Shown here: positions 23,762-57,838 of the stretch, piece by piece
Position numbering within the stretch: position 1 is the stretch's first letter
Layout of the letters: every line of letters starts with the position of its first letter
Translations under genes and position numbers: made by a program
Notes under the pieces: model-generated
The model's input: only the letters and a program-made list of their open reading frames with translations
Told to the model about the DNA's origin: nothing
The model's database searches: none
Source of the DNA: Hyphomicrobiales bacterium
GTDB taxonomy: Bacteria; Pseudomonadota; Alphaproteobacteria; Rhizobiales; Rhizobiaceae
Length of the DNA: 64,000 bases
Direction of reading: 5' to 3'
Assembly: GCA_900469625.1 (NCBI GenBank)
Contig: UBXV01000043.1
Span: 1 to 64,000 of the forward strand

Positions 23762-24208
23762 ATGACGCTGACCAACTTTCCCTCCGAACATCACCGCCGC
23801 CTGAACATCCTTGCCGGCGCCTGGGACACGTCGATCACCATGATTGAGGCCGACGGCACCGAAGGCGGCACCTCGCAGGCCAGCGACATTTATGCATGGA
23901 TGCCGAACGGCCACTTCCTCGTGCATGACGTCGACGCGATGATGGGAGACCAGCATGTGCAATCGACTGAGATCTTTGGAGTTGATCGAGCCTCGGGCGA
24001 ATTCTTTAGCCGGAGCTACGATCCCGATGGCAGCACAAACGATTTTGTCTCAAAGATCGAGGGCCTCGACTACACAATTACAGGCAAGATCCAGCGCTTC
24101 ACTGGGTATTTCGGTGACGATGGCAGGATGCTGCAGGGCGAATGGAGGCAACTCCAGGGGGATGATTGGAGGCCTTTTGTTCGGATCGTGCTTAAGAAGC
24201 GTTCATAG
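23762..24208 (+). CDS. DUF1579-like hypothetical protein
   Basis: A 148-aa protein starting at the ATG that follows a GAGGAG site. It begins HHRRLNILAGAWDTSITM and contains ASDIYAWMPNGHFLVHDVDA and EIFGVDRASGEFFSRSYD, the pattern of DUF1579/YybH-neighbour lipocalin-like proteins of unknown function. No signal peptide. Probably in one transcript with the EthD gene. A hairpin follows immediately. Confidence 0.65.
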   Translation: MTLTNFPSEHHRRLNILAGAWDTSITMIEADGTEGGTSQASDIYAWMPNGHFLVHDVDAMMGDQHVQSTEIFGVDRASGEFFSRSYDPDGSTNDFVSKIEGLDYTITGKIQRFTGYFGDDGRMLQGEWRQLQGDDWRPFVRIVLKKRS

Positions 24209-24224
24209 AGGCTCGCCGAAGAGG

Positions 24225-24252
24225 GCCGTTGTCGCCTGGGGCGGACAACGGC
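24225..24252 (+). terminator. Hairpin after the DUF1579-like gene
   Basis: GCCGTTGTC and GACAACGGC form a perfect 9-bp stem with a 10-nt loop, 16 bp after the stop. No long T-run follows; possible terminator. Confidence 0.5.
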
Positions 24253-24468
24253 AGCTTTCGGGCCCTCACAGCTTTGCTGCGAATGGCGGTAGTGGGGTCG
24301 GAAGCGGTTATGGAGGTCGCCCACGCTCATCGAACCCCAGGCCCAAGAGTGGTCCCATCACGTGCCCGACCAAGGGCAACGTATTACGTCTTTTCCCACC
24401 CAATCGTCACTTCGGGCGTTGGAGATCAGGGTAGCGGCCCCGCTAAGTGCCAAACGGCATTTGCGATT

Positions 24469-42746: not shown

Positions 42747-45700
42747 TTAGGCAACTGCTGTCTCGAACCGAGAGGGTCGAGACAAGACTTTGACGTCGCC
42801 AACAAGTGCACGTGTTCCGTCACCTTTCAGGTAGCTGCTGGTCCCGGTAATAGCCGAGCCGTCTGCAAATTCACGCGCGCCCGCCGTCGATGGCACAAGC
42901 TCGATCAAGCTGACGTCGGCCTCAGCCAGCGTCTGCAGTTCGCCGGCATCCGTAGCACCATTTTGATTGACGTCACGCCAAATACGGAACTCGCTCCAGC
43001 GGGCATCACCAGCGTCCAGTTGATTGTTGCCGTTCGTGTCGAACACCAGACGCAGGGCCTCGAGGTCGCTGATTTCCGCCTGCTCTTCGACAAGCTCATC
43101 GTACGTCTTCCACATCGTGAACGCGAGTTCCTTGGCCTGGTCGATCAGACCATCCGCACCGGAGGTTCCGTCGGCGGCAAGGTCAACCGCCAACCATCCA
43201 TCAGCCGGGCCCACCCAGCCGGTACCGTCGGCGACACCATCGCCATCCCAATCGAACCGCGGGCCATTGCCCGCATCTAAGTCAGCCGGTGAGAAGATAC
43301 GAAGATCGATATGGTTGTCACCGTTAAGATCGAGCACGACGGGTCGGTTCATCAAGCCAAAGCGGTTGTGGACGTATTCAGGATACATACCCAGGACGGT
43401 TCTGCTGTCCCCGTTTTTGGCCGCGTAAAGTTTCGCCTGAATGCCAACGTCAAGCCGCCCTCTGTCTTTATTGTAGGGCAGCCACCAGTTCAGCTGATTT
43501 GTCGCGTAGTTGCGCATGTCTTGAATTCTTGCAAGCTGTAGATCGGCAAATAGCGGTTCGTTCAGGCCCGCTAAATCCGACTGCGTCCGCCCATCGAAAC
43601 GCTGATACCCTTCATGCGGCGCGCGGCCTTCTGCATACCCATTAGCGCGCCAATGCTCGAACGGATTTAGGCCCGCGTTTCTGATATCCGTATTCTGCTG
43701 CAGGTAGTAGTTCCCATCGAACCAGGCATTCGGCCTGCGCCCTTCCTTCCACCCGAACTGGCTGTAGTGCTCGATCGCCGGCGCATGCCAGCCGTTGGCG
43801 ATGTCCGGGTTCATAGCAAGATAGTAGTTTGCATCAAACGTCGCCATCTGGCGGGCTGTGCCTTGTCCGTTGGCCCGTGCCTCAACCACCGAACCATCGT
43901 CGCGTCTCGTGTATTCGGCCACGACCTGTCCCGCGGAGTTGAGATATTGCTCGACATAGGAATAGGGCTGGGCGTTGGTGGGATCCCAGAACTTCGCATG
44001 CCTTGAATTGTCCGGCTGGTGGGCTGCGGTGGAGACCACAGCGCCACTGGGGTTCCGGACCTCTACGAAGCGTGCCCATGGCTGATTGTTGTAGACGTTG
44101 TAGGTCGTCGTTTCGGTCCAACCATCATCCCATCTGTTCATCTGCCACTCGACAGCATTGGCGCCATTGACCCGCTGTTCGATGTAGGACCAGTTTTGAT
44201 TGTTGGCGGCATCCCAATGCTTGACGAAGCGCGAGTTGTCGCCTTGGTAGGCTGCCTCCGTCATCAACGCGCCACCGGCGTTTCGGGCCTCGACGAGCCG
44301 CGCCCAGGGCTGGTTGTTATAGACGTTGAACGTCGTCGTCTCTGTCGAACTGTCGTCCCAGCGGCTCATCTGGCGCTCAAGCGCGTTGGCACCGTTGAAG
44401 CGTTGCTCGATATAGGACCAGGCTTGATTGTTGGCCGCATCCCAGAGCTTCACGAACCGTGAGTTGTCAGCCTGGAAAGCCGCCTCGGAAACCAGCGCCC
44501 CGCCTGCATTCCTCGCCTGAACGAGACGCGCCCAGGGCTGGTTGTTGTAGACATTGTAGGTCGTCGTCTCCGTCGACCCGTCATCCCAGCGGCTGACCTG
44601 CGATTCCATCGCGCCGGCGCCATTGAACACCTGGGTGATCTGTGACCAGCCATGCGCGTTCGCCGGATCGAAGGCTTCCACGACCGACGTGCCATTGTCG
44701 TTTATGGTTGCGGTCTGGGTTATCCGGCCCTGCGCGTCGACGAGGTGCTCTCTTCGAACCCAGGACTGATTGTTGGCCCAATCGTAGTCGGTTCTCGCGG
44801 TCATGACCCCTGCTGCCGAGAAGATCCGAGCTTCGTAAAGCTGACCACCCGGCGAACGGTAGTAGAGGTCCGTTCTCGTGTTGTTATCGTGGAACTGCTT
44901 TTCCAGCGTCTTGACGCCCGCCGCATCAATGGTCTGCTCGACGCGCGACCAGCCGTTCTGGTTATAGGGATCGTAGATTACCGCTCCAGATTCCCGTCCG
45001 GCAGCGTCATAGTAGGTTCTCGACAGCAAGTTGCCGTCGGCGGCGAAGTTCTGGGACTCCTGAATGACGCCACCTGACGCTCGGAAGATGACTTCCGTGC
45101 GGGTGCCGTTGTCGAAGAATTGCTTCTCGAGTGTCTTAACGCCCGCCGTGTCGAACGTCTGCTCAATCCGCAACCATGTCTGCTGGCTCGGATCGTGGAG
45201 GACGGTGCTCGTCTTTCGCCCTTGGGCGTCGTAGACGGTTACCGACGTCAATGCACCGTTGGCGGCAAAGGTGCGGGACTCGTAAATCAGCCCACCAGCC
45301 GCCCGATAGTACAGCTCCGCCCGGGTGTTGTCGTCGAGGAACTGCTTCTCGAGCGTTTTCACGCCGGCCGTGTCGAAGGTCTGCTCGACACGCGTCCATG
45401 GCTCTCGGCTCAGCGGGTCATGGAGGACTGTGCTCGTCCGGCGGCCCTGTGGGTCATAGAGGGTTACGGAGGTCAACGCGCCGTTGGCGGCGAAGGTCCG
45501 CGACTCGTAGATCAAGCCGTCAGATGCCCGATAGTAGAGATCCGCCGTGGTTCCGTCGTCGAGGAACTGCTTTTCCAGCGTCTTGACGCCGGCCGTATCA
45601 AAGGTCTGCTCAACACGTGACCACGTCTCGGCGTTGGCCGGATCATGGTGGGTGGCGCTGCGGATGATGTCGAACGCATCGAACACCTCTGTCACGCGAA

Positions 45701-48700
45701 CCGCGCCCGTCGCTGCCACGTAGGTGGTGCGGGTCGACGTTCCATTCGTTGCTCTGGTTTGCTCTTCAAGCGTGCGACCAGCGCCATCCACCGTCTTGCT
45801 GCGAAGAATGTTCCCGAATGAATCGACCGTGGTCTCAGCACTCTTGGTAACCGCACCGGTATTTTCCCTGGTCACGGCCGTCCGCTCGACGCCTCCGCTG
45901 CTGCGCTTCGTCGTCGTCTCCACGAACTCGTAGAAACCATCGTTGTTGGCGTCTCTTCTAAAGAGGCTCACCGCACCATCGTGGCTAACTTCATAGAGAC
46001 CACGCGACTTGACGCTGCCATCCCCATTTGTTTCGACGACGGTTGTGATGACGCTGTCGTCGATCCGTGTCTTGACGTCCATCGAGACCTCGAAACGACC
46101 GTCGCCATCGACATCGATCGTCGTGGTCTTGACGAGGCCATCTGCCGAAGTGGTCGTCTGAGTCGCCGCCGGAACCTTGTCGTTCCAATAGGTTTCGTCG
46201 TTCTGCTTCTGGTCCGACTTGCGCGCACCGACATTGTTGGTGACTGACGTCTGCCGCACGCCAGAGGCAAGGATCGTCTCGCGGACGGTCTGGTCGACGA
46301 CGCCGTCACCGTCCACATCCGTTGTTTCGACGTAGGTCTTGCCGTCGGCGCTTGTGGTTTTCGTCGTCTTGGAGCGGAGCTTGCTGGCCCTCAGGTCGGT
46401 CTCGGTGACCGTTACTTCTCGGCTGCCGTCGGCAAAGAACGCGTTCTGCTGGACTTTCCGTGTGTCTGCTGTGCCATCCGCATTTCGATCAATCTCGATC
46501 ACCGAAGACAAACCGTCCGGGGCTTCCGTCGTTGTCATTCGGCCGGTCACCGCACCATTGGCGAAATTCGTCAGCGTGGAGATGCGACGGCCATCGACGG
46601 TGGTCACGGTTTGCTCGCTCTGGTCCACCTGACCGTCGCCATTGGTGTCTCGATCGATCTGAACCAGGCGCTTGTCGTCGGAAATGGTGGTCGTGATTCG
46701 TTCGACGAGCTGGTTGGCCGCATTGCGGATGCTGTCGACCTTGACCGTGCTGCCATCAGCCCTTTCACGCGACAGCGAGACCGTCGTGCGAGCAGCAACG
46801 CCGTCGATGCCCGAGACGTCCTGAACCGTGACTGTCTTGCCGTCGGCGCTGGTCGACGTCGTCACGGTCGAAAGCGCTGCAGCGTTCGGCCCGGTCGACG
46901 CAACGGTGCGCGTCAGCGTCCCGTCCGCATTCAGAAGCCTTGTATCGGTCTGGCGTTGATCAACCGATCCGTTGCCGTCCACGTCAAGCTGCTTGGAGGT
47001 GACGAGGCCGTTGGCAGAAACAGTTGTCGTGAGGGTACGGATGCCCTGGCCATTTGCAAACTGCTGGTCGGTCGTGGTCCGCGAGCCATCGGCGTTGAGC
47101 ACGGTCACCTTGCTTTGCCGGCGATTGAACGTACCCGCTCCGGTGTCGTCCCATTGCAGGTTTTCGGTGAGCCCGTTTCCGCTGGTCGAAGCGACTTCCC
47201 GCCCCTTCAGGACCCACGCACCATTTTCGCGATTGCTGTAGTCCGTCGTGACCGTTCTGCTGCCGTCCGAACCGATCACAGTGTTCTTCGTGACCAGGGC
47301 GTCCGCACCGCCGGCACCGTCGAAGTCGTAGGTGTACGACTGGTTGAGGCCGTTGCCACTGGTGTCGATGATCGTCTGGCGGGCCACCGTATGACCGTCG
47401 GCGTGATAGTCCGACAGTACCTGATGCCGGGTGCCGTTGTTGTAGATCTGGGTGAAATCGCTCTGGTCACGAACGCCATCACCATCGAAGTCTTTGGTCA
47501 CCGAGGTGGTCCGCTTGTCGGCACTGGTCCAGGTGCCGACATGGCTTTCCCGCGTCCAGTCGGCGTTGCGGAAATAGACGACGTCGCGCTGGGTGGTTCC
47601 ATCCTGATTGATCTTGGTGATGTCGTTATAGGCGCGCAACGTGTTGTAGTTGCCGTCAGAATAGATCACTTCCTTCGTCAGGCCGTCAGCGCTGACAATC
47701 GTCATTGTCCGCTCCTTCAGTGCCCAACTGCCGGAGAACTCATCGTCGAACCGGGTGGTCGAACCATTGGCGCCAAGGCTGGTCTGCGTCCGCCGATGCA
47801 GATCCCACCCGCTGTCGCCGGTCAGCTCGAAGCTCCTGGTCGTCATCAGCCTGTTCGCCGAGACAAGCGTCAGGCTGGTACTCAATGTGGTTCCGGAAGC
47901 GCTGAACTCCGCCACCGAGCGCGACCGCTCTCCGGTGTTGCTGATACGCTCTTCGATCCACCGATCAACGGCCCCGTTGCCGTCATCGTCGATCCCCTGG
48001 CCGATCAGCTTTCCATCCGAACTCGTGTTGGTTTCGGTGCGGGCGAGCAGCCCCCCGTTCGCCGCGTGACTTTCGGTGGCCTCATAGACGGAACCGTCAG
48101 CGTTCAGCGTTTTCAATTGGGTTATTGTGTTGTCGACGACACCGTCACCGTTGAGGTCCGATGTCGTGCGTGACGCCAGGCCGTTCGCCGATGTCGCGAC
48201 CGTCGAGCGCGAGACGAGGCTCGTGCCTGCCGTCGTCGACTGGGTCATGGTCTTCGCGCCGTTGTTCTCAATCACGGTTGTCTTGGTAACCGTGCTGTCG
48301 ATGACGTCGTCGCCATTGACATCGTTTTCCTGGGTCACGGAAAGGCCGTTGCCGCTGGTCGTCACTTTGCTCCGGTTGAGCAACGTGTTGTTCGCGGAGA
48401 CCTTCTTGGTGGAGACCGTGTTGCCGCCATCGTTGTGCAGCATCGTAAACGTTTCGGTGACGAAGTCGTTCGCCCAGTCGCCGTTGACGTCGTCGAACTC
48501 CTGCTTGAACAACCCATCGACGCTCACGTAAAGAAACTTCTTCGAGAGAAGCAGCCCATCGGCATAGTTGTGGCTGTCAACCATCTGGGCGCCGTTGCTG
48601 GATCGCGTCGCGCGCTCCCAGAAATCGGTCCGCCCGTCACCATTGACATCCTTTTGAACCACCGTGTCGGAGCGATCGGCATTGATCGAGGTGGTTTCCT

Positions 48701-51700
48701 TGGCAAGCAGCGTTCCATTGCCGCTCCGGTTCTCAACCGTGATCGACTGGCTGCCGTCGGCATTGAGCACCTTTGTGCTCGAAGCGTTCTGGTCGACCTG
48801 GCCATCACCATTGATGTCGGTCGCAATGGAGACAAAGAGCCCATCCGCACTGGTCGTCTCGACCGACCGCGAAATGAGCGGGTTGTTCTCGCTCCTGCGC
48901 TCGATCGTGCGGGTTGACGTACCACCCGCGTTCCGGGTGGTCGTATCGACGACGATTTCGTCGAAAACGTTGCGGCCGTAGCGATCAACCTGCGTCGTGT
49001 TCGACAGCCGGTCGGCGCTTGTGGTCTTCACCGACCGCGACAGCAGCGTGCCATCGACACTATGGACGGTTGTGGTCTCGGTGACGACACCGGCGGCATC
49101 CCGGGTCACGGCGACCACCTGGTCGGTCGCGCCGTCGCCGTTCGTGTCGCTGGCGATCGTTCCGACCAGGCCGTCGGCAGCGCGTTGCTCGACCGACTGA
49201 GACAGAAGCTTACCGGACTGCGCGGTCGCCCGCATCGTCCTCGTCCGTGTGCCGTCGGCCGCCACGAGAGTTACGTCGGACGTCGCGCGGTCCGTGGTGC
49301 CGTCGCCATTCTGGTCCGTCGAGCTGGTTTTCGTCAGGCCATCGGCGCTGACCGTCGTCGTGACCCTGCCGAATACGCTGCCTTCGCGCGCCAGCGAGGT
49401 CTCGACAACTGTCGTTACGCCATTGCCGTCGCGGCTTGTCGACGACGTCGTCGTAAAGTCGTTCGCGCCATCGCCATCCACGTCCACCGTTTCGGTTCTC
49501 GAGCGGTTGTCCGCATTGATGCTCGTCTCCGTTCGCGACAACAGGTTCCCGTCGCCACCGCGCACGGTATTGCGTTCAATCCGGCTGCCATCGGCATTGT
49601 AGACCGTCTCTGACGCAACGCTGCGCTCGAAGTAGGAGTCGCCGTTTGCGTCCTGACGGATGGTGCGCGTCAGGCGATCGGCGGTATGCGAAGTGACTGT
49701 CTGCTTGATCAGCGTGCCATCCTGACCGAGTTCCTGCACGGTAATCGTCAGGGAATTGTCGGCGGCCTTGACCTGCGTTTCCCTTTGCGTCGTATAGCCA
49801 CCGCCGCGCTCGTCGCGCGAAATCGTGACGGTCCTGCCGTCGCTGCTCTTAACCGTGGTGGTCGAATCGATCAGGACCCCGCCGCCGTTGCGATTCGTTT
49901 CCGTTCGCGTCTGGCTTCCATCCGCATTGAGGACAGTGACATCGGTCAAGACCCTGTCGACGACGCCGTCACCGTTCTGGTCGAAGCGGGCAGTCACGGT
50001 CAGGCCGTCGGCGCTGACGGTCCGCGACGTTTCGGATTTGAGCGTGCCGTCCTTGGCATGGGCGCGCGTGGTGACCGTCCTGTTTCCGGCGCCGTCCGTC
50101 GACGTCGCTTCGGTAACCTGGTAGCCGTCCTGATCATAGGTCAGCGTCGCAGTTGCCGCCGTGCCCTTCGAGCCATCGGTTCGCGTAAACGTCGTCTGTC
50201 CGTCGATCGAAGATCCGTCGTCATAGACGATCTTCGTCTGGTCGACGCGAAGGTCGATCGACTGGATACCCAGTTGCGAAAGCGTTCTCGCCGTGATCGT
50301 CCCGTCCGCGTTGGTCACCATGACCTTGAACGAGGTCCACTGCGCGTCGCCGGCATCGAGCAAACCGTTGCCGTTGGTATCGAAGACCTGCCGCAGGGCC
50401 TGCATGTCGTTGTCGGCAGACGGATCCCAGTCGGTAAACACGATTTCCTTGCGGCTGGAGATCTTGCCGTCTCCGTCCGCATCAACCATCAGCACGCCGT
50501 CGCCGGCCCCCACCCAGGCGCTGCGATGCTTGTATCCATCACCACCGATGTCGAGGAACAGGTTCGAATCGTGCCGTCCGGTGACGCTGAACCCGTTGCC
50601 GTCCAGATCCAGAAGCACAGGCTTGCCGTTAGCCCCGCGCCCGCCGCCCTTCGATTGGCTGGTGTTTTTTGAGGAACTGTTGGTCGTCTTGGAAGGGGTG
50701 CGGCTGGTGCTCTCGCCGCCGCCGCCCTTGCCGGACGAGCTCTGGGTCGATGTGGTCTTCGTCGCCGACGTCGTTCCGGACAAGGATGTCGATTTGGTAG
50801 GGGTTCTGGCCGCGGTGGAGCTCTCACCGCCGCCGCCTTTGCCTGAGGACCCTTTGCTGCTGCTGGGTAGGGTGGCACGATCCAAGCGGGCATGAAGGCC
50901 GGCATCGTTCGTGTTGGCGCCGGCGAGTTCAGCCTCCCGGAATGCGGCAGCTAACGCATCGGTCCGGTTATGTCCCGCCGCCATCGCGGCGCGTGCAGCG
51001 GCCTCGGCGCGGGCCGCCGGGCTTGCGTTCTTACCCCCGTTTTCAGCAATAGATTTTTCTAACACAGCCCGGTCGAGCGTGATGGCGCGACCTGCGGACG
51101 TGAAGCCAACGGCGGTCCGACCACCAAAGTCTTCGACACCCATCGCGGCCCGGCCAAGACTTGCTGCATAATCCAGTGGGACCTTGGCAATCCTGGCGGC
51201 GTGGTCGAATGCGGCCAACCCTGCATCGAGTTCATGAGCCCACGCTTCGGAGAGGTTGTGAACCCGCATGCCACCGGCAATAAAAGTATGAAGTTCTTCC
51301 ACTTCGATGTTGTAAGTTCGCCAGCCGCTGCTGCAGGCAGCCGGGAGAGACGAAGCGCCTGCGCTCAGTGACGCGTCGATCGCCTCTTCGAAGAGATGAG
51401 CGTTTTCACTAGTGTAAACAATACGCTCTGCGAAAACATCGATCACTTCGCCACTTGAAAGAACTAATTTTGCGCGGCCGCCCTCAAGCATTTCGTTAAT
51501 GGCTGGGAACTCGCCGTGATTGTCCAGAAAATGATGCCCCGGAGTAGTTATGAGTTCGTGCTCGCTGCCGTCTTGTTGCCATGCGAGCCGAATCCACTCA
51601 TTCGTGATACTCCGATAAAGGCGCGTGATGCGTCTGGGTAACAGCTCACCACGCCCCAGTTCATCAGATGAAGAGAACGCGAGAACAACGTCTCCTACAC

Positions 51701-52388
51701 GCAGGTCAGAGATTGGCTTACTGGAACCATCTGCGGTGGCAACGAGTGTAAAGCCAGGAAAACACTTGGGACCAATCTCGCCGAAACCGAAGGGAGCCCC
51801 TGGGTTACGCCCCAATTGTCCCTCCAGCAACGAATTGAAGAAAGGATCCTTCGTCCGCGCCACGAAATTTATATCGGTAGGTTTGACGCCTGCCTCTCGA
51901 AGAGCCATCATCGTTCTGGTGTTTAGCGCGTAAATTGCGCCGTCGCGGTAGACTAGATTGACCTCGACTTTTGAGGGCGAAATTAGACCGGACTTGAGCG
52001 CTGACGCCAAGTCATCGACCGTCCTAATCGGTCTCCCGGCAAGTTCACTATATATTTTTATTCCATCACGCGAGTATGTTCGGGAATAGGAGCCTTGCGC
52101 TGCAACAAAATCATCTAGCGACATAGCTTTGGAGCCAAACCTAGACGCTAGCCCCTGTGTTATGGCGCCTATTCCCAATTCTATTCCGAGCCTTACAAAT
52201 GACTCCCTCCACGTCGTTGGAGAGTTCTCAATTTCCCTAATGTGAAGATCCAAAGAACCATACTGGCTTCGAAATGCAGCCTGATCTATTTCACCCGCCA
52301 TAAATCGTCTGTTGAGACCACCAAGTCTGCCGTAAAGCTCCGACAGGTAGGCTTCTTTAACCTCAGGATCGAGCCGCGAACTGCCCAT
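42747..52388 (-). CDS. Giant type I-secreted repeat protein with Hint domain
   Basis: 3213 aa. Order: residues 1-208 unknown, containing ALNTRTMMALREAGVKPTDI and LLEGQLGRN, a pattern I associate with polymorphic-toxin modules; Hint domain 209-378; Ala-rich helix 450-490; Ser/Thr/Gly/Lys linker 507-588; Ca-binding-like T1SS-associated domain 589-760 (VLLDLDGNGF, VFDTNGNGLLDAGDAQW); about 25 repeats of 56 aa (760-2160) each with a D-x-NGDG-x-x-D loop; four 75-aa EQTFDTAGVKTLEKQF repeats; three 75-aa NVYNNQPWAR repeats; two FDxxYYL modules (about 2851-2925); and a second T1SS-associated domain 3014-3213. No GGxGxD nonapeptides. Ribosome site GCAGGAG. Probably exported by the adjacent exporter; the toxin role is inference. 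Confidence 0.88.
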   Translation of the reverse strand: MGSSRLDPEVKEAYLSELYGRLGGLNRRFMAGEIDQAAFRSQYGSLDLHIREIENSPTTWRESFVRLGIELGIGAITQGLASRFGSKAMSLDDFVAAQGSYSRTYSRDGIKIYSELAGRPIRTVDDLASALKSGLISPSKVEVNLVYRDGAIYALNTRTMMALREAGVKPTDINFVARTKDPFFNSLLEGQLGRNPGAPFGFGEIGPKCFPGFTLVATADGSSKPISDLRVGDVVLAFSSSDELGRGELLPRRITRLYRSITNEWIRLAWQQDGSEHELITTPGHHFLDNHGEFPAINEMLEGGRAKLVLSSGEVIDVFAERIVYTSENAHLFEEAIDASLSAGASSLPAACSSGWRTYNIEVEELHTFIAGGMRVHNLSEAWAHELDAGLAAFDHAARIAKVPLDYAASLGRAAMGVEDFGGRTAVGFTSAGRAITLDRAVLEKSIAENGGKNASPAARAEAAARAAMAAGHNRTDALAAAFREAELAGANTNDAGLHARLDRATLPSSSKGSSGKGGGGESSTAARTPTKSTSLSGTTSATKTTSTQSSSGKGGGGESTSRTPSKTTNSSSKNTSQSKGGGRGANGKPVLLDLDGNGFSVTGRHDSNLFLDIGGDGYKHRSAWVGAGDGVLMVDADGDGKISSRKEIVFTDWDPSADNDMQALRQVFDTNGNGLLDAGDAQWTSFKVMVTNADGTITARTLSQLGIQSIDLRVDQTKIVYDDGSSIDGQTTFTRTDGSKGTAATATLTYDQDGYQVTEATSTDGAGNRTVTTRAHAKDGTLKSETSRTVSADGLTVTARFDQNGDGVVDRVLTDVTVLNADGSQTRTETNRNGGGVLIDSTTTVKSSDGRTVTISRDERGGGYTTQRETQVKAADNSLTITVQELGQDGTLIKQTVTSHTADRLTRTIRQDANGDSYFERSVASETVYNADGSRIERNTVRGGDGNLLSRTETSINADNRSRTETVDVDGDGANDFTTTSSTSRDGNGVTTVVETSLAREGSVFGRVTTTVSADGLTKTSSTDQNGDGTTDRATSDVTLVAADGTRTRTMRATAQSGKLLSQSVEQRAADGLVGTIASDTNGDGATDQVVAVTRDAAGVVTETTTVHSVDGTLLSRSVKTTSADRLSNTTQVDRYGRNVFDEIVVDTTTRNAGGTSTRTIERRSENNPLISRSVETTSADGLFVSIATDINGDGQVDQNASSTKVLNADGSQSITVENRSGNGTLLAKETTSINADRSDTVVQKDVNGDGRTDFWERATRSSNGAQMVDSHNYADGLLLSKKFLYVSVDGLFKQEFDDVNGDWANDFVTETFTMLHNDGGNTVSTKKVSANNTLLNRSKVTTSGNGLSVTQENDVNGDDVIDSTVTKTTVIENNGAKTMTQSTTAGTSLVSRSTVATSANGLASRTTSDLNGDGVVDNTITQLKTLNADGSVYEATESHAANGGLLARTETNTSSDGKLIGQGIDDDGNGAVDRWIEERISNTGERSRSVAEFSASGTTLSTSLTLVSANRLMTTRSFELTGDSGWDLHRRTQTSLGANGSTTRFDDEFSGSWALKERTMTIVSADGLTKEVIYSDGNYNTLRAYNDITKINQDGTTQRDVVYFRNADWTRESHVGTWTSADKRTTSVTKDFDGDGVRDQSDFTQIYNNGTRHQVLSDYHADGHTVARQTIIDTSGNGLNQSYTYDFDGAGGADALVTKNTVIGSDGSRTVTTDYSNRENGAWVLKGREVASTSGNGLTENLQWDDTGAGTFNRRQSKVTVLNADGSRTTTDQQFANGQGIRTLTTTVSANGLVTSKQLDVDGNGSVDQRQTDTRLLNADGTLTRTVASTGPNAAALSTVTTSTSADGKTVTVQDVSGIDGVAARTTVSLSRERADGSTVKVDSIRNAANQLVERITTTISDDKRLVQIDRDTNGDGQVDQSEQTVTTVDGRRISTLTNFANGAVTGRMTTTEAPDGLSSVIEIDRNADGTADTRKVQQNAFFADGSREVTVTETDLRASKLRSKTTKTTSADGKTYVETTDVDGDGVVDQTVRETILASGVRQTSVTNNVGARKSDQKQNDETYWNDKVPAATQTTTSADGLVKTTTIDVDGDGRFEVSMDVKTRIDDSVITTVVETNGDGSVKSRGLYEVSHDGAVSLFRRDANNDGFYEFVETTTKRSSGGVERTAVTRENTGAVTKSAETTVDSFGNILRSKTVDGAGRTLEEQTRATNGTSTRTTYVAATGAVRVTEVFDAFDIIRSATHHDPANAETWSRVEQTFDTAGVKTLEKQFLDDGTTADLYYRASDGLIYESRTFAANGALTSVTLYDPQGRRTSTVLHDPLSREPWTRVEQTFDTAGVKTLEKQFLDDNTRAELYYRAAGGLIYESRTFAANGALTSVTVYDAQGRKTSTVLHDPSQQTWLRIEQTFDTAGVKTLEKQFFDNGTRTEVIFRASGGVIQESQNFAADGNLLSRTYYDAAGRESGAVIYDPYNQNGWSRVEQTIDAAGVKTLEKQFHDNNTRTDLYYRSPGGQLYEARIFSAAGVMTARTDYDWANNQSWVRREHLVDAQGRITQTATINDNGTSVVEAFDPANAHGWSQITQVFNGAGAMESQVSRWDDGSTETTTYNVYNNQPWARLVQARNAGGALVSEAAFQADNSRFVKLWDAANNQAWSYIEQRFNGANALERQMSRWDDSSTETTTFNVYNNQPWARLVEARNAGGALMTEAAYQGDNSRFVKHWDAANNQNWSYIEQRVNGANAVEWQMNRWDDGWTETTTYNVYNNQPWARFVEVRNPSGAVVSTAAHQPDNSRHAKFWDPTNAQPYSYVEQYLNSAGQVVAEYTRRDDGSVVEARANGQGTARQMATFDANYYLAMNPDIANGWHAPAIEHYSQFGWKEGRRPNAWFDGNYYLQQNTDIRNAGLNPFEHWRANGYAEGRAPHEGYQRFDGRTQSDLAGLNEPLFADLQLARIQDMRNYATNQLNWWLPYNKDRGRLDVGIQAKLYAAKNGDSRTVLGMYPEYVHNRFGLMNRPVVLDLNGDNHIDLRIFSPADLDAGNGPRFDWDGDGVADGTGWVGPADGWLAVDLAADGTSGADGLIDQAKELAFTMWKTYDELVEEQAEISDLEALRLVFDTNGNNQLDAGDARWSEFRIWRDVNQNGATDAGELQTLAEADVSLIELVPSTAGAREFADGSAITGTSSYLKGDGTRALVGDVKVLSRPSRFETAVA
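43860..44640 (-). repeat. Three and a half tandem 225-bp coding repeats, family 2
   Basis: A 75-aa unit containing RWDDGSTETTTYNVYNNQPW. The YNNQPWAR anchors at 44531, 44306 and 44081 are exactly 225 bp apart, the same period as family 1, suggesting that the two families share an ancestor. The copies are highly similar, hence the youngest part of the array. Confidence 0.8.
44880..45640 (-). repeat. Four tandem 225-bp coding repeats, family 1
   Basis: A 75-aa unit beginning EQTFDTAGVKTLEKQF; anchors at about 45569, 45344, 45119 and 44890 are about 225 bp apart. A fifth, degenerate copy follows. The pattern of Tyr/Arg/Asp-rich strands recalls YD/Rhs-like repeats. Confidence 0.8.
45900..50135 (-). 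repeat. Tandem array of about 25 copies of a 168-bp coding repeat
   Basis: Each 56-aa unit follows the plan LLSRSVETTSADGLFVSIAT, DINGDGQVDQ, then VLNADGSQSITVE. The DxNGDGxxD loop resembles a calcium-binding EF/dockerin loop. Copies are divergent in DNA but constant in period, implying long-term selection rather than very recent expansion. Confidence 0.8.
51255..51764 (-). other. Hint (intein-like) autoprocessing domain inside the giant protein
   Basis: Residues 209-378. The domain opens with C209 in GPKCFPGFTLVATADGSS, block A of Hint domains. The TxxH block B is LITTPGHHFL (T282, H285). After VEELHTFIAGGMRVHN it ends at H377-N378, the terminal pair used for asparagine cyclisation. The next residue is Leu379, not Cys/Ser/Thr, so normal protein splicing is unlikely and cleavage or ligation, as in bacterial intein-like domains, is expected. 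Confidence 0.85.
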
Positions 52389-52408
52389 TATTGTTCTCCT
52401 GCCCTCTA

Positions 52409-52813
52409 TTAATGATTTTGCAAATCGTCGCCGATCATAAGATTAAATATATCTGCCAGAGTCGGCGGAGCGCTTTCCAGCGCCTCAACTTCTTCCGCCG
52501 AAACCTCAAGGAGACCATGTTCACTGAAAAAGCATTCGTAAGATTTGATGCCGACAGGAAGTTCGGAACCACTACCTTTTCTCTCGCAGACGCAATCGTA
52601 AGACTCGCCGTTAATTGATATCAACAACGGCTGCCTCTTGTAAGAAAAAGACAATACATTCTTAAATAGAATGTAATTATCGATAAAATCGTTACTTTCT
52701 TCATATTTGTATTGCACGCATAGATTCATCGAATCTGACGCAATGTATACACGAATATTTCCGGACGAATTTGTTCGCAGTTCCAATACTTTGCTGTATT
52801 CTACCATGTCCAT
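52409..52813 (-). CDS. Unrecognised 134-aa protein upstream of the giant gene
   Basis: Acidic, no signal peptide or membrane segment, so cytoplasmic. It begins MDMVEYSKVLELRTNSSGNI and contains SMNLCVQYKYEESNDFIDNY. It is visibly more AT-rich than the surrounding DNA. Its stop lies 20 bp before the giant gene's start, on the same strand, so the two must be co-transcribed. Size, composition and position fit an immunity protein for the giant protein's N-terminal domain; a secretion chaperone is the alternative. The family is not recognised. Confidence 0.65.
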   Translation of the reverse strand: MDMVEYSKVLELRTNSSGNIRVYIASDSMNLCVQYKYEESNDFIDNYILFKNVLSFSYKRQPLLISINGESYDCVCERKGSGSELPVGIKSYECFFSEHGLLEVSAEEVEALESAPPTLADIFNLMIGDDLQNH

Positions 52814-52875
52814 TTCGCCTCGACTTTAATGTGCAAATGCCCGAGCAAACGTCGGCGACCTATCGAAACATCGAC

Positions 52876-53406
52876 CTAGACGACATATGCGCCGCCTACA
52901 AATTTGGCCCCCGCAGCCTTCATCAGCCGATCGGTTGCCTTGATGTTCGACCCGGTCGTGACATGAATGAACGAGTGGCTCGCGTTGAGAGATGCTGCCC
53001 ATTGTCGAACCGCGGCCACAAGCCCGAGGAACACCTTGGCACGGCGAACCGGCGGCAAGTTCAGATCGACAGCGATGACATGTACAGTGACGAACAGCGG
53101 GCCGTCGGTTAGCATATAGGAGTCGGCGATCGCCCAAGCGACACCGACCGGCTTTCCGTCCAAAACCGCAATTGGGCAGACCATGCGCGGCGGACGGGAC
53201 AGGATCGTGTTGAAGTGTTCGTTCAGCTTCCAGTCGGAGAACGCCTGATCGCGAAACACGGTCGTGGCGTGGTGCTGCTTGATGATGTCACGCACGACCT
53301 CGGTGTCGCGCTCTTCAAGGAGGCGAACCCTGAGACCGCGCTCCTGCTCGCTCACCGCTAAAACATCCATTCTTTCAACGGATTCGTTGACGTCGCCCAT
53401 CATCAT
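52876..53406 (-). CDS. GNAT-like acetyltransferase
   Basis: About 176 aa from the ATG at 53406 (internal alternative ATG at 53370). VRLLEERDTEVVRDIIKQHH, then VLDGKPVGVAWAIAD, VHVIAVDLNLPPVRRAKVFL and a C-terminal NIKATDRLMKAAGAKFVGG follow the GNAT fold. The classic Q/RxxGxG/A loop is not obvious (PVRRAKVF in its place), so acetyl-CoA binding is uncertain. It precedes the 134-aa gene by 62 bp in the same direction and may belong to the secretion operon. A toxin-modifying role is possible, since HlyC acyltransferases share this fold. Confidence 0.6.
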   Translation of the reverse strand: MMMGDVNESVERMDVLAVSEQERGLRVRLLEERDTEVVRDIIKQHHATTVFRDQAFSDWKLNEHFNTILSRPPRMVCPIAVLDGKPVGVAWAIADSYMLTDGPLFVTVHVIAVDLNLPPVRRAKVFLGLVAAVRQWAASLNASHSFIHVTTGSNIKATDRLMKAAGAKFVGGAYVV

Positions 53407-54269
53407 AACTCTCGAATTCCAACAAAAGCTCACGCACCGAGCATCCAAATGGCCGCTCGGCAATCCGTTCAGATCTTAAGCTTGGTTCACCTGCTATGCA
53501 GCAATTCCGCACAATCAGGACAAGGTCAGACGCTCAGGGTAGGCCAGATCTCAGGCGTCAGAAAGACGCGCCGCATAGGCGTCCATCGGACGCCTTTTGC
53601 CCTCCAATTGCCCCAAACAATCCTTCCCCCGTGGACCACACCCAGCAACCTGCATAGAACAACTATGGGGCGAACGCTACAAGAATTTGGGGGCCGGGTT
53701 GTAGAATTTAAGGCAGAGCGCCGTCGCCCACATTGGCGCCCTCCCCTCACATATGAGGGCTGCAGAGCACCGAAGAAAACGAAGGTGAATCTCGGCATCG
53801 AAAACCGGAAACGCACGCGCTCGTTTCCACCTTCGAGCGCCGAGAACGAAGCTTAGGGAGCGCCGAGTTTGCGAAAGTTGCCCGCTGTTGGCCCGATCCT
53901 TGTGAGAGAGTGAAGGGACGATCGGACGCTCAGCCGGCGACATTCCCAGAGCTGAGAACCGCTCCAGTCGATACATTATGCGATCTTCGTGGCCCAAAGG
54001 GTGAACATCACGGCAACACGCCGTGCAACGCTCGGGGGAGCACGAATTTTCCCGCCCCTAAGGCGACGTCCACGCTTAGGTCTGTGGACGGCAGCACCGC
54101 GCGCGCCCCGTGTCAAACAGCTCTCGTTCGTCTGAACTGCCATCATCCAGCGGCGATTAGAATCTCGACAGTTCTAAGGCAGTGCGAAATTGATAAACAC
54201 ACTTGTCTTAATCGCGCCCTCAATTCAACTATAGATGGCGGCAATTCGCCGCTCGACTATCGGGTGGAA
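53407..54269. other. Region between secretion locus and Gabija genes
   Basis: About 860 bp. It holds dispersed-repeat copy 3 (53968-53985) but no frame with family features. The AT-richer part from about 54180 to 54260 probably carries the Gabija promoter. Confidence 0.4.
53968..53985 (+). repeat. Dispersed 18-bp repeat, copy 3
   Basis: TCGATACATTATGCGATC, 285 bp before the gajA-like start; followed by CCCAAAGGGTGAACAT, partly shared with copy 2. Confidence 0.8.
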
Positions 54270-56078
54270 ATGATGCGAGTAGCTCGAATTGTGATTCAGA
54301 ATTTTCGTACGTTCGCGTCACTCGACGTGAATGTCGCGGATGATCTGTGCTGCATCATCGGAGAGAATAATACAGGCAAGACCGCGATCCTTCGCGCAAT
54401 CCAGATTTGTCTAGATAATATGCTGCCATCGAGTTTTCGGTCGCTGCAGCGCGAGGACATCCACTCGGCGATCGATATCGCCGCGCCAAGCCAGGTTCTG
54501 ATCGGAATTGAGCTGACTGGGTTCGAGGGGCGGGTAAATGAAGAGGCGCTGGTCAGTACCTGGAAGACGGCTCCGGACCGCGCGCGTATCTTCTACCGCT
54601 TCCGCCCGCGCCCAAATGTCAGAGAGCAGCTTGCAAGTGGCGACATTGTACCCGGGGCGTTGACTCTCGAGGACTACCAGTGGGAAATCCGCGGCGGCGG
54701 TGATCCTGCGATCGACCTCACGAACATTGCCTGGAACGACGAGGGGATCGGGGAATCCGTGCGCTTCGCCGATTTGCAGTCTTACCTCCTCGTTCATCTG
54801 CCCGCGCTCCGCGATGTTGAGAACGACCTGCGTAATCCTCGCCAGTCACCGCTCATCCGCCTGATCGAGGCGTTCGAGATCGATGCGGCCGAGCAGGATG
54901 CCCTGATTGCCATCCTCGACCAGGCTAATCAGGCAATCGCAAGCTCGGCGACTATCGCCGAGATAGCAGGGGCAATTGACGCACGGTTCAAGGATGTCTC
55001 TGGCCCCGCGTTCGAGATGGACGCCACTCTCGGCCTCTCCGCTGCGTCCTTTCGCGCGATCATACGCAACCTGAAAATCATTCTGTCGGACCTTTCACTT
55101 ACCTCGTTCGAACCTGGCCGCAACGGCCTAGGGATGAACAACATCCTCTACATCGCGATCCTTATGGAATACCTGCAGCGGCGGATCGCGCTCAACCGCT
55201 CGGCCGGCCAACTGATACTGATCGAGGAGCCAGAAGCGCATCTTCATCCTCAATTGCAGTTCTCCTTGATCGCGGCACTGCGGGCGATCAACGTGCAGAC
55301 CATCCTGACCAGTCACAGCACCCAGGTGACCTCTCAGGTTCCACTGAGCAGCATTGTATCTCTCACCAAGCGCGAGGACGCGACTATCGCTGCCGGCAAT
55401 CTCGCGCTCAATGCCGCGCTGACCGCGCCAGAGATTGCCGATCTCGAACGCTACCTCGACGCAACCAAGAGCGCCTTGCTCTACGCGCGCAAGGTCATGC
55501 TAGTCGAAGGTCCAGCCGAGATGTTCCTGATCCCGGCACTGATCGAGCAAGTGTACGGCGTGAAGCTCGAGCGGCTCGGGATCTCCGTTATTGCGATTCA
55601 TGGCGTCCATTTTGACGTATATGCCAAGCTGTTCCGCGCCGGATCGCTCGAGAAAAAATGCGCCATCGTGGCCGATGCTGACATGGCGCCATCCGACGCC
55701 GAGGACTTCGATCCGGAAGCAGGCACCCCCGATCTAGTGGCACTGGAAAACGACTTTGTGTCTACATTTGAGGGGGCCACCACTTTCGAACGCGAGCTGG
55801 TATCGGTCGGGCGCCTGCCGATGCTGATCGAGGCCGTCCGAGCCCTCGGCGCGCCGCAGATCCTTGCACAGATGGAGGATGGGCTTGCGACGCTTGAGCT
55901 CGGGGGACTGAGCTCCGCCGACGAAACAGCACTACGCATCGAGCTTGGCCGTATCACGCTCAATACCGCCAAGCGCTTTGGCAAGGCTCGCTTCGCGCAG
56001 ATAGCTGCGCGCTATGCCCACCTCGCGACCGATTTGCCGACCTATATCGAGGAGGCGTATGAGTGGCTCACCGAATGA
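54270..56078 (+). CDS. gajA: OLD-family nuclease-ATPase, Gabija GajA-like
   Basis: A 602-aa protein; ATG at 54270 or 54273 follows GGGTGGA and fits the conserved beginning MRVARIVIQNFRTFASLDV. The SMC-like ATPase has Walker A GENNTGKT (31-38), a GLGMNNILYIAILMEYL signature-like helix (286-302) and Walker B LILIEEPEAHLHPQ (315-328), then the TSHS switch (347-350). The TOPRIM nuclease domain starts at about 408: VMLVEGPAEMFLIPAL (E413) and CAIVADADMAPSDAED (D469, D471). With a UvrD-like helicase gene overlapping its end it is a class 2 OLD protein, the arrangement of the Gabija anti-phage system. Confidence 0.9.
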   Translation: MMRVARIVIQNFRTFASLDVNVADDLCCIIGENNTGKTAILRAIQICLDNMLPSSFRSLQREDIHSAIDIAAPSQVLIGIELTGFEGRVNEEALVSTWKTAPDRARIFYRFRPRPNVREQLASGDIVPGALTLEDYQWEIRGGGDPAIDLTNIAWNDEGIGESVRFADLQSYLLVHLPALRDVENDLRNPRQSPLIRLIEAFEIDAAEQDALIAILDQANQAIASSATIAEIAGAIDARFKDVSGPAFEMDATLGLSAASFRAIIRNLKIILSDLSLTSFEPGRNGLGMNNILYIAILMEYLQRRIALNRSAGQLILIEEPEAHLHPQLQFSLIAALRAINVQTILTSHSTQVTSQVPLSSIVSLTKREDATIAAGNLALNAALTAPEIADLERYLDATKSALLYARKVMLVEGPAEMFLIPALIEQVYGVKLERLGISVIAIHGVHFDVYAKLFRAGSLEKKCAIVADADMAPSDAEDFDPEAGTPDLVALENDFVSTFEGATTFERELVSVGRLPMLIEAVRALGAPQILAQMEDGLATLELGGLSSADETALRIELGRITLNTAKRFGKARFAQIAARYAHLATDLPTYIEEAYEWLTE

Positions 56079-57838
56079 TCCGGCTGACACCCGAGCAGCG
56101 CGAGGCTGTCGAACATGACGGCAATCTGTTGCTGACTGCTTGCCCAGGCAGTGGCAAGACGCGGGTCATCCTCGCCAAGCTACTGACGCTGGCCGATCAG
56201 GTCGTCGGCACGCCCCAGTTCATCGGTTGCATCACCTATACCAATGCCGCGGTCGATGAGATCGAGGCCAGGTTGCGCACCTACGGCAACAACGCGATCG
56301 CAGACCGCTGTGAAATCTCAACGATCCACGCTTTCTGCCTGCAATTCATTCTGCGTCCCTATAGCTGGCTGATTCCAGAGGTGCCGGCGTCGTTTCAGGT
56401 TCTCTCTCGCGAGAACAGCCTGTTCGAGCAGATCGTGACGGCGGTCGAGGACGCCTTCGGTCGCATGCCCGCGGGGCAGGTGTTCGAGGACTATGAATCG
56501 CTTCGCATCGACGTGAACGGCGAACCCTGCGGCCAGGGTATCGAGACCGGCATCGTCACCGATGAATCCGCCGCGCTCTATTGGGAGCGGGTCCGCGCCC
56601 ATGGATACCTCGATTTCGCGATGATCCTCTATTATTCGTGGAAGATTGTCGAACAGCATCCGTTCGTCGGACGCGGCATCGCGAGCCGCTTTGCCTGGCT
56701 GCTGATCGACGAATTCCAGGACACCACAGACATCCAGATCGCCATCTTCGGCGCACTCCAGCATTTCCTCCACACCCGCTTCTTTCTCGTCGGGGACCAG
56801 AATCAGTCGATCATGCGCTTCGCCGGTGCTCGCCCCGAACTCGCCGAGCAGTTCGGCGATCAGATCGACGCGCACCGCGACACGGCCTTGACTGGCAACT
56901 TCCGATGCGGGCCGGCGATAGTTAGCACTGCCTCAACATTGATCCCGACCGTGCCGGCGATGCAGTCGGCGGGCGATGCAGCCCAGCTCGCGGCACAAGT
57001 GAACTACGTCCATGTCGGCCGGCCGATCGACGCCATCACAGACCATTTCCTGCCCGCCCTGCAGGATGCCGGCATCCCGCTCGGCAAGGCCGCAATCCTA
57101 GCACCATGGTGGACACATCTCATCCCCGTCGCCCGCGCCCTTCGCGAATTGGACGTGCCGATCTTCGGTCCGGGTGCCCGCCCATATAGACGTCGGCGTC
57201 TGATTGCCGGACTTGCCGAGCAACTCGGAGCCTGCGCCGGGGCCGGCAATTACCTCGGAATCCCGGGTGTCGAACGGGCACTGTTTCGGCTCATCGGCGA
57301 TCTGACCGGGAACTCGCGCTACGACATGTTCAGCTATCAGGGCCGTCGCGTGGCGCTCGGCCTTATCTATCTCGCTCGCGAACTTGCCGACCAGCATCCC
57401 GGCGGCGTCGCTTGGCTGCGCGCCATCGCCCGCGAAGCTGGTGACTATCTCGACTGCGAGGAATGGTTGCCGGGCGGCGCCAAACAGCCGCTGATCGATT
57501 CCGCCGAGGAAATGTTGTCCGACATGCAGACCAGTAAGGTCGATCTAGCGAATCTCCTTATCTCGGATATGGGCCTGTTCGCCAATCCCGAGCAGGCGCT
57601 CAAGCTAATCACGCTACACAACTCTAAGGGTCGCGAATTTGATGGCGTCGCCCTGATCTGCATGAACAATGGCAGTATCCCGCATTTCTCGACATCGACG
57701 CAGGAGGCGTATGACGAGTCTCGCCGGCTATTCTACGTCGGCCTAACCCGCGCTAGGCGCATCCTCGTTGTGGCGTCCGATCAGTCTCACTGGAAGAACA
57801 CTCCGACGCCCTTCATCGCGGAGGCTGGCCTTGAATGA
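56063..57838 (+). CDS. gajB: UvrD/PcrA-like helicase, Gabija GajB-like
   Basis: A 591-aa superfamily 1 helicase. Motifs: Walker A LLTACPGSGKTR (about 23-34), Ia ITYTNAAVDEIEARL, II LLIDEFQDTTDIQ, III FLVGDQNQSIMRFAGA, IV LTGNFRCGP, V TLHNSKGREFDGVALI, VI RRLFYVGLTRARRILVV; all intact. Two starts are possible: GTG at 56063 with GGAGG 7 bp upstream, or ATG at 56075 overlapping the gajA stop (ATGA). The ribosome site favours 56063. It partners GajA in sensing or processing phage DNA. Confidence 0.9.
   Translation: MAHRMIRLTPEQREAVEHDGNLLLTACPGSGKTRVILAKLLTLADQVVGTPQFIGCITYTNAAVDEIEARLRTYGNNAIADRCEISTIHAFCLQFILRPYSWLIPEVPASFQVLSRENSLFEQIVTAVEDAFGRMPAGQVFEDYESLRIDVNGEPCGQGIETGIVTDESAALYWERVRAHGYLDFAMILYYSWKIVEQHPFVGRGIASRFAWLLIDEFQDTTDIQIAIFGALQHFLHTRFFLVGDQNQSIMRFAGARPELAEQFGDQIDAHRDTALTGNFRCGPAIVSTASTLIPTVPAMQSAGDAAQLAAQVNYVHVGRPIDAITDHFLPALQDAGIPLGKAAILAPWWTHLIPVARALRELDVPIFGPGARPYRRRRLIAGLAEQLGACAGAGNYLGIPGVERALFRLIGDLTGNSRYDMFSYQGRRVALGLIYLARELADQHPGGVAWLRAIAREAGDYLDCEEWLPGGAKQPLIDSAEEMLSDMQTSKVDLANLLISDMGLFANPEQALKLITLHNSKGREFDGVALICMNNGSIPHFSTSTQEAYDESRRLFYVGLTRARRILVVASDQSHWKNTPTPFIAEAGLE

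Follow-up and report, generated by a model that had tools for sequence, protein, structure and literature searches.

A probable type I-secreted antibacterial toxin of inverted polymorphic-toxin architecture in an hlyCABD-plan operon of a Hyphomicrobiales bacterium

Several described toxins leave the cell through a type I secretion system (T1SS). CyaA and HlyA are RTX toxins accompanied by CyaC and HlyC, and CyaA, which is acylated, carries its payload N-terminally on a C-terminal carrier; MARTX toxins, also exported by T1SS, have central exchangeable effectors, cysteine protease autoprocessing and eukaryotic targets. FrpD is encoded directly upstream of FrpC (Linhartova 2010, PMC3034196), and a hypothesis of Bayer-Santos 2019 (PMC6759196) proposes FrpC as a T1SS antibacterial effector and FrpD as its immunity protein; Cdz is named as a T1SS player in the review PMC7690452. 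The HINT domains of polymorphic toxins are tied to export by type II, V and VII secretion systems (T2SS, T5SS, T7SS) and TcdB/TcaC and stand just before C-terminal toxins, T1SS being unmentioned in the passages of PMC3482391 that deal with them. Here we describe an operon in a 64,000-nucleotide stretch of a Hyphomicrobiales bacterium (assembly GCA_900469625.1, contig UBXV01000043.1, positions 1 to 64,000; this whole stretch is called the window), which probably encodes a type I-secreted antibacterial toxin of inverted polymorphic-toxin architecture on the hlyCABD plan. That a T1SS payload can be N-terminal has already been put forward for FrpC/FrpD; the new part is the Hint-bearing exchangeable class, and in the open-licence PubMed Central literature we found no account of Hint-bearing, exchangeable, immunity-linked T1SS toxins with N-terminal payloads.

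The operon is transcribed from the minus strand in the order GNAT-fold gene, 134-aa gene, giant protein gene, HlyB and HlyD (Table 1). An earlier sequence-only reading of the window had described the giant as residues 1-208, a Hint domain, a linker, about 30 repeats and a C-terminal domain, followed by exporter and adaptor genes, and this layout is confirmed by the open reading frame (ORF), the motifs and the profiles TIGR01846 (HlyB, 935.1 bits, cut-off 725.55) and TIGR01843 (HlyD, 328 bits, cut-off 208.65); the HlyB-type exporter and HlyD adaptor looked for beside a T1SS substrate are found within the giant's own operon. The repeats resolve into 24 units of ~55 aa between residues 792 and 2178 (from 25 matches of a home-made profile, some weak) and about eight of ~75 aa (eight motif matches at residues 2256-2809, mostly spaced 74-76 aa, with DNA tandem arrays of 225 and 228 nt). 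The small AT-rich gene noted before the giant ends 20 nt upstream of its start with a GC content of 0.405; the payload has 0.508, the giant behind it 0.607 (0.533 in residues 209-353 and ~0.61 further on) and the window 0.587. The span first outlined, 42747..53406, does contain the giant, but its end is the ATG of the GNAT-fold gene (52876-53406), which went unmentioned, and the GNAT/HlyC slot was missed.

Related loci were collected by a Hint alignment scan of one genome per species (97 pattern matches, 85 confirmed, 80 kept as L020-L099). Together with the window and 12 plasmid loci (L008-L019) these make 93 loci, 71 of which were used; the other 22 were dropped because Hint was partial or scored <100, or because Cys1 or a start was missing. 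By record title the genome-scan loci are Alphaproteobacteria with at least three exceptions. The segment before Hint (N-segment) was measured from the first start codon that follows a stop, which may overstate its length; the median is 199 aa, and in 61 of 71 loci it measures 145-260 aa. At E<1e-3 only 23 of 2485 N-segment pairs are related, and single linkage gives 54 groups (57 at 1e-5); all 2485 Hint pairs are related at the same threshold, partly by construction as the loci were picked by Hint. Behind Hint, 77 pairs are at least 50% identical over 200 aa or more; 6 of these have the N-segment in common, and none of the four pairs with the closest backbones (80-91% identity over ~1000 aa) has a common payload. 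The nearest backbone (91% identity), L008 from Ensifer sp. PDNC004 of the same genus, differs in both payload and neighbour gene. These counts support the inverted layout with a variable N-terminal payload that the sequence-only reading had proposed, and they are the opposite of the invariance of residues 1-208 that it had named as counting against it. As in polymorphic toxins, a variable domain, here a predicted toxin, sits on a conserved chassis of Hint and repeats.

Two oddities were seen in the set. L012, counted among the 71 despite its 48-aa N-segment, has a Hint giant with 48 aa before Cys1 (11869-12012) and a partial GNAT match upstream, and payload loss is possible there. In L014 and L070 (Paracoccus versutus) the Hint region lies in two frames, with two annotated proteins in L014, as in a broken copy.

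Where the exchange takes place could be located by blastn of the window against L008: the alignment runs at 81% identity up to 52877, in the GNAT gene, is absent from 52876 to 51329, and resumes at 86% from 51328 to 43546 (7.8 kb). At the protein level identity jumps ~150 residues into Hint in three of the four close pairs; in the fourth, L011/L013, it climbs gradually within Hint. From the gap in the DNA alignment and the jump inside Hint, we conclude that the small gene, the payload and most of Hint have apparently been replaced together as a cassette, the boundary of which appears to lie near the last Hint block. The survey for N-terminal domains swapped together with the small gene, suggested by the sequence-only reading, finds its answer in this gap and in a linkage of payload and neighbour above chance (see below). 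L013, from Agrobacterium fabrum, also encodes on the opposite strand, just behind its HlyD gene (23869-24648), a protein with a pre-toxin TG domain, a second polymorphic-toxin-like gene beside the operon.

Relatives of the payload outside T1SS giants were identified by tblastn of the first 463 residues against 72,556 plasmid records, which matched 27 records in two sets. The larger set, which includes Rhizobiales plasmids, covers the Hint part from residue ~200 (a few from 153-198). The other five records align with nothing but residues 68-201. In Burkholderia ambifaria the match is the end of a filamentous hemagglutinin-type protein with DUF637, in Duffyella that of a hemagglutinin-repeat protein, and in B. 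multivorans a 119-aa ORF; Mesorhizobium has two copies, of which the one inspected is a 179-aa ORF shortly after a fragment annotated as Rhs core. The segment ALNTRTMMALREAG...LLEGQLGRN, which the sequence-only reading associated with polymorphic toxins, indeed recurs at the C-terminus of CdiA-like proteins. The five aligned payloads have YS..AG..I.T.DDLA, NT.T and QL..N in common and are 38-45% identical to the window, and a small gene lies directly behind the payload in each of the four plasmid loci examined (two CdiA-like C-termini and two further ORFs). In genome G128, from the same family, the window payload forms the N-terminal part of a different giant, whose gene is followed by HlyB (76%) and HlyD (51%). 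The payload was otherwise rare: a search in genomes of the phylum found it in 3 of 398, the window's own among these, 248 genomes of the family of genome G526 gave one match, G526 itself, and in viral contigs none of 48 pattern matches was confirmed.

The profile and structure search of residues 1-208 that had been suggested succeeded in part, yielding the CdiA C-terminal relatives and no significant fold. The payload gave 14 matches in a PDB sequence search, none credible, the best (E 0.041) being a designed protein. Its AlphaFold2 (AF2) single-sequence model has a pLDDT of 50, and the top Foldseek match, Spo0J/ParB 1vz0, is non-significant (E 0.39, TM 0.25). With the Tox-ParBL1 motif [ST] and [NT][RT][RT] read by eye, all 5 aligned payloads have NT and 4 of them R, an NTR motif that fits the Tox-ParBL1 residues given in PMC3482391. 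A ParB-like payload fold is a lead suggested by this motif and the model. We also noticed an RNA 2'-phosphotransferase (KptA-like) gene near the payload in four non-T1SS loci (Table 1), and none was seen at the Mesorhizobium payload locus; such neighbours may hint at RNA as the payload target.

The small gene upstream is linked to the payload by several comparisons. In G128, a 141-aa gene directly upstream of the payload giant resembles the 134-aa protein of the window (E 2e-4; 0 of 400 shuffles), and its product also resembles the Duffyella small protein (z 4.1, 3 of 400 shuffles). An upstream ORF of at least 110 aa at a gap of -65 to +60 nt is present in 51 of the 71 loci against 120 of 1420 random positions (a looser count, 64 of 71, is weak alone, as 819 of 1420 random positions pass too). 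For loci with an adjacent ORF, 21 pairs have related N-segments and 5 of these also have related neighbours, as against 2 of the 1995 pairs whose N-segments are unrelated. Five linked pairs were reached in none of 2000 label shufflings; the five fall into three groups (L011/L042/L056, L015/L034 and L050/L075). A small gene unlinked in relatives, the other outcome that the sequence-only reading would have held against itself, is therefore not what G128 and these pairs display. As in polymorphic toxins, a predicted cognate immunity gene is adjacent and linked, but it lies upstream and not downstream, and the arrangement of an N-terminal effector with a partner gene directly upstream is that of FrpC/FrpD. 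Among the 55 upstream ORFs that reach 100 aa, a crude rule finds a signal-peptide-like start in 34 (1 of 29 GNATs), and the 134-aa protein of the window has no such stretch. This pattern points to targets in the periplasm for many payloads and in the cytoplasm for that of the window.

Two candidates for a wider immunity family were rejected. A single family common to all payload copies found no support (alignment at 14-23% identity, the window at shuffle level). A profile built from the window and G128 proteins, run over 346 genomes, recovered both by construction and G165 (E 0.0034), which we treat as a chance match and not as a third immunity locus (best payload E 6, no credible T1SS match in its context). 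A plasmid search with the 134-aa protein gave no match.

Named families among the N-segments are few. L062 carries an AHH nuclease (E 5e-7) behind an upstream Imm11 gene (7e-15), L030 a TseH domain (7e-19), L046 a Lipase_3 domain (3e-6), L023 and L044 weak Peptidase_C97-like matches (0.017 and 0.0006), and L015 and L034 domains of the Smlt3024 family (5e-8, 2e-9) with related upstream ORFs; other Pfam families were matched as well, among them ADP-ribosyl cyclase (2 N-segments) and Colicin_M (0.0098), and HExxH is present in 8 of 71. TseH and AHH have bacterial targets. AHH beside Imm11, TseH, Lipase_3 and Smlt3024 stand in the places expected of them, which supports the toxin reading, and the pairing of AHH toxin with Imm11 immunity is one listed in PMC3482391. 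The same toxin could in principle be aimed at amoebae, plant or fungal cells, with a regulator or chaperone in the upstream gene, as in CyaA, which likewise has its enzyme on an RTX carrier (PMC5666347), and plant- and animal-associated bacteria do occur among the record titles of the loci. However, those payload families that have a name (CdiA C-termini, TseH, Smlt3024, AHH/Imm11) act against bacteria and come with immunity partners, and variable cognate neighbours are expected of immunity proteins, less so of chaperones, so that eukaryotic targets seem very improbable.

Several observations weigh against a T1SS toxin with linked immunity. HlyB was found in 18 and HlyD in 14 of the 71 loci, some of them not downstream, many stretches ending too early to tell; neither GNAT nor HlyC is present in 26 of the 69 loci with room for them. 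No neighbour similarity is detectable in 16 of the 21 payload-related pairs, the remaining five coming from the three groups above, and the 134-aa protein compares with the small proteins beside four other payload copies at shuffle level (z 0.4-0.7). Among upstream ORFs, 61 of 64 of which were scanned with Pfam, there is one named immunity family, Imm11, and one protein of FGE-sulfatase type (E 2e-43), no obvious immunity protein. The window payload has no credible match in Pfam/NCBIfam and its best PHROG match (E 0.0033) is a family of unknown function, Pfam gives no match at 0.01 for at least 58 of the 71 N-segments, and the G128 stretch (L116/L119) has neither a Hint nor a GNAT match (tblastn, E 1e-3). 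The absence of Pfam families would also suit a giant T1SS adhesin with variable adhesin or surface domains as its N-segments and a chaperone encoded upstream, and size, repeats and T1SS resemble those of giant adhesins. PMC3034196 names nine RTX proteins that show weak Hedgehog/Intein similarity, in a passage that gives them no role. Such an adhesin is nevertheless a poor prospect, given several N-segments in nuclease, effector and lipase families, one of them beside Imm11, a window payload that is a CdiA C-terminal domain, and the signal-peptide-like starts of the upstream ORFs, unlike those of cytoplasmic chaperones. All in all, we consider the toxin/immunity reading highly probable. The FGE-sulfatase-type protein is probably, by length and sequence, the 338-aa upstream ORF of L026 (8340-9353); another scanned ORF has a weak RELT match.

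The Hint domain of the giant has the Cys1, TxxH and HN elements of Hint and bacterial intein-like (BIL) domains (Cys209, TPGH 282-285, VHN 376-378). Residues 1-463 match PF01079 (E 9.9e-6, 25.7 bits, under the cut-off of 29.7) and PT-HINT (E 0.0013), the intein C-terminus profile TIGR01443 scores 16.9 bits (cut-off 15.6; 14.8 with the whole giant as query), and the domain aligns with eight related Hint domains at 39-54% identity, a profile support that is weak yet consistent. TxxH and HN are retained in 65 of the 71 loci, which were selected for Cys1.

T1SS substrates are expected to carry few or no cysteines. The giant has 2 Cys in 3213 aa (209, the presumed nucleophile, and 352); of the 59 giants that reach 1000 aa, 56 have at most four, and Cys1 of Hint is the sole Cys in 15 over the sequence covered. 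The 15,867 N-segment residues include 5 Cys (66 of 71 segments have none), as against 216 in 10,599 residues of adjacent ORFs of at least 100 aa (Fisher p 1e-78), although the latter may often be periplasmic proteins with disulfides and the GNATs (65 Cys in 5,710 residues) are a milder control. Three of the five Cys-bearing N-segments are those of L023, L030 and L044, whose families are presumably cysteine hydrolases. The low-Cys expectation is supported for lipases and S-layer proteins in PMC3034196. That the nucleophile is retained in otherwise Cys-free giants argues for an active Hint.

Release of the payload, as the sequence-only reading had it, is the action of Hint that we favour, with fair confidence. 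Hint is present in the window giant, but G128 carries the payload without a detected Hint, so that Hint appears to be accessory and non-obligatory; the G128 locus has either lost Hint or belongs to a Hint-free sister type. Hint might instead join or anchor the payload, by splicing or by N-terminal acyl transfer to an acceptor, as in the clip-and-link of FrpC. The position directly after HN varies (Asp in 37 of 69, Ser in 1 of 69) and rarely offers a splicing nucleophile, but one residue further on Ser or Cys stands in 68 of 69, perhaps an alternative nucleophile, and FrpC-type T1SS proteins both cleave and link (PMC3034196, PMC6759196). On the other hand, the conserved residue may just be a component of the fold, PMC3482391 interprets Hint beside other polymorphic toxins as an autopeptidase that sets the toxin free, and a BIL domain in a CdiA is reported to be active in autoproteolytic cleavage (PMC4725963), which leaves joining unlikely.

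The first gene of the operon encodes a GNAT-fold protein 84% identical to a protein in Ensifer sp. PDNC004; its AF2 model (pLDDT 89.7) matches GNAT enzymes, best 1qsm (E 6e-8). A GNAT-like gene lies upstream in 28 of the 71 loci and an HlyC-like one in 15, never both, either kind being present in 43, and PF02794 is matched by all ten HlyC-like proteins scanned and also by that of L015. The GNAT thus appears to occupy the slot that HlyC has in other loci and, to judge from gene position, may acylate the toxin. At the other end of the giant, the C-terminal domain is presumed to contain the T1SS signal; a copy of it also precedes the repeats (by eye), and both copies were detected in one relative. 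The window protein has no GGxGxD calcium-binding nonapeptide of the kind that marks RTX-type substrates, and it has 19 DxN/DxD loops.

The following course of events is consistent with these data. The producer would be protected by the immunity protein, and HlyB/HlyD would export the giant unfolded, C-terminus first, in which case Hint would be unable to fold and act prematurely. Outside the cell, Ca2+ binding would fold the repeats, which would contact a competitor, perhaps aided by acylation. Hint would then fold and cut before Cys209 by an N-S acyl shift, liberating the payload, and the freed payload would inhibit a neighbour without the immunity gene. New payloads would arrive as cassettes of immunity gene, payload and N-terminal part of Hint through recombination near the last Hint block.

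On balance, and with more reserve than for release by Hint, we lean toward seeing these loci jointly as a widespread, unnamed class of weapon, mainly of Alphaproteobacteria, in which an hlyCABD operon became an inverted polymorphic-toxin launcher and, in part of the class, HlyC was replaced by a GNAT. The class would comprise the 54 payload groups of the 71 loci with their upstream immunity genes, would have been almost wholly purged of Cys save the Hint nucleophile, would keep Hint safe in the producer through unfolded T1SS export, and would include a new kind of toxin-activating acyltransferase, a GNAT without detectable similarity to HlyC in the same operon place. If so, giant type I-secreted carriers join the export routes of polymorphic toxins, with reversed polarity because the export signal is C-terminal. 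A search rule would follow, namely the first 150-260 residues before Hint in Cys-poor T1SS proteins together with the gene just upstream, by which dozens of payload and immunity families unnamed in Pfam become candidates, and the timing of a self-cleaving domain that stays silent until export is complete becomes a testable question.

Table 1. Features of the toxin operon (positions in the window) and KptA-like genes near the payload in other loci (positions in the locus named)
Feature	Position	Strand	Basis or remark
GNAT-fold acyltransferase gene, first of operon, 176 aa from ATG at 53406	52876..53406	-	frame open from 53463
134-aa AT-rich gene, predicted cytoplasmic immunity protein	52409..52813	-	upstream of giant
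Giant protein gene, 3213 aa, uninterrupted ORF	42747..52388	-	ORF list
N-terminal payload segment, residues 1-208	51765..52388	-	residues 84-208 are the domain common to CdiA C-termini
Hint domain, residues 209-378, Cys209 (presumed nucleophile) to HN 377-378	51255..51764	-	profiles and motifs
Putative variable cassette of small gene, payload and the N-terminal ~145 residues of Hint	51329..52876	-	blastn gap against L008
Post-Hint stretch and Ser/Thr/Gly-rich linker, residues 379-602	50583..51254	-	translation; residues 386-470 84% identical to L008
~24 repeats of ~55 aa, many with DxNxDG-type loops, residues 792-2178	45855..50015	-	home-made profile
~8 repeats of ~75 aa, residues 2256 to ~2884, end estimated	43737..45623	-	motif matches
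C-terminal domain, residues 2951-3213, presumed T1SS signal inside	42747..43538	-	conserved in HlyB/HlyD-bearing relatives
HlyB-type T1SS ABC exporter, 731 aa	40453..42648	-	TIGR01846 E 2.3e-281; 96% identity to L008
HlyD-type periplasmic adaptor, 487 aa	38993..40456	-	TIGR01843 E 8.7e-98; 83% identity to L008
KptA-like gene	L004 3799-4350		annotation
KptA-like gene	L005 3766-4401		by eye
KptA-like gene	L006 3734-4333		annotation
KptA-like gene	L117 1109-1681		by eye

The operon is flanked in the window by two features on the plus strand. At 53910-57838 an OLD-like AAA/TOPRIM gene (PF13175, PF20469) overlaps a UvrD-type helicase gene (PF00580), a pair that resembles the Gabija defence pair. 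At 37730-38902, beside the HlyD end, lies a gene with the motif HPFLDGNGRLGRLL, typical of Fic proteins.

Compared with known systems, FrpC/FrpD is like the window system in having an N-terminal domain on a giant T1SS protein, a partner gene upstream and a self-processing module (SPM) behind the domain; two loci of the present set even bear N-domains of the Smlt3024 family, known from RTX proteins (PMC6759196). It differs in that the FrpC module is an Asp-Pro clip-and-link one, where the window has Hint at the corresponding place (no SPM profile search was made), and the FrpC/FrpD passages of PMC6759196 and PMC3034196 report neither an HlyC/GNAT slot nor payload exchange among dozens of unrelated domains. 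Polymorphic toxins with HINT (Zhang 2012, PMC3482391) are alike in chassis, exchangeable toxin, adjacent immunity gene and the Hint between. Their toxin is C-terminal, however, whereas the window payload is residues 1-208 of 3213 with the predicted immunity gene upstream; we therefore file the window system as a variant and not as a standard member. It also has T1SS genes in place of the routes by which polymorphic toxins are exported (such as T2SS, T5SS, type VI secretion (T6SS), T7SS, PVC and TcdB/TcaC).

With CdiA/CdiI the payload itself is held in common, at CdiA-like C-termini, but the window system has no two-partner secretion (TPS) domain, no filamentous hemagglutinin (FHA) repeats and no DUF637 (Pfam, E up to 10), nor CdiB, and has HlyB/HlyD instead. 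CyaA and HlyA operons likewise combine an acyltransferase gene, the toxin gene, HlyB and HlyD; the window differs from them by an immunity-like gene between acyltransferase and toxin, by payload exchange, by Hint and by the absence of GGxGxD. MARTX toxins are alike in T1SS export, exchangeable effectors and release by autoprocessing, and differ in their central effectors, a cysteine protease domain in place of Hint, and eukaryotic targets. Cdz of Caulobacter, finally, kills other bacteria by way of a T1SS and includes an immunity gene, likewise in an alphaproteobacterium, but it consists, as described in PMC5380434, of two small glycine-zipper proteins with no giant carrier, and Hint goes unmentioned in that paper.

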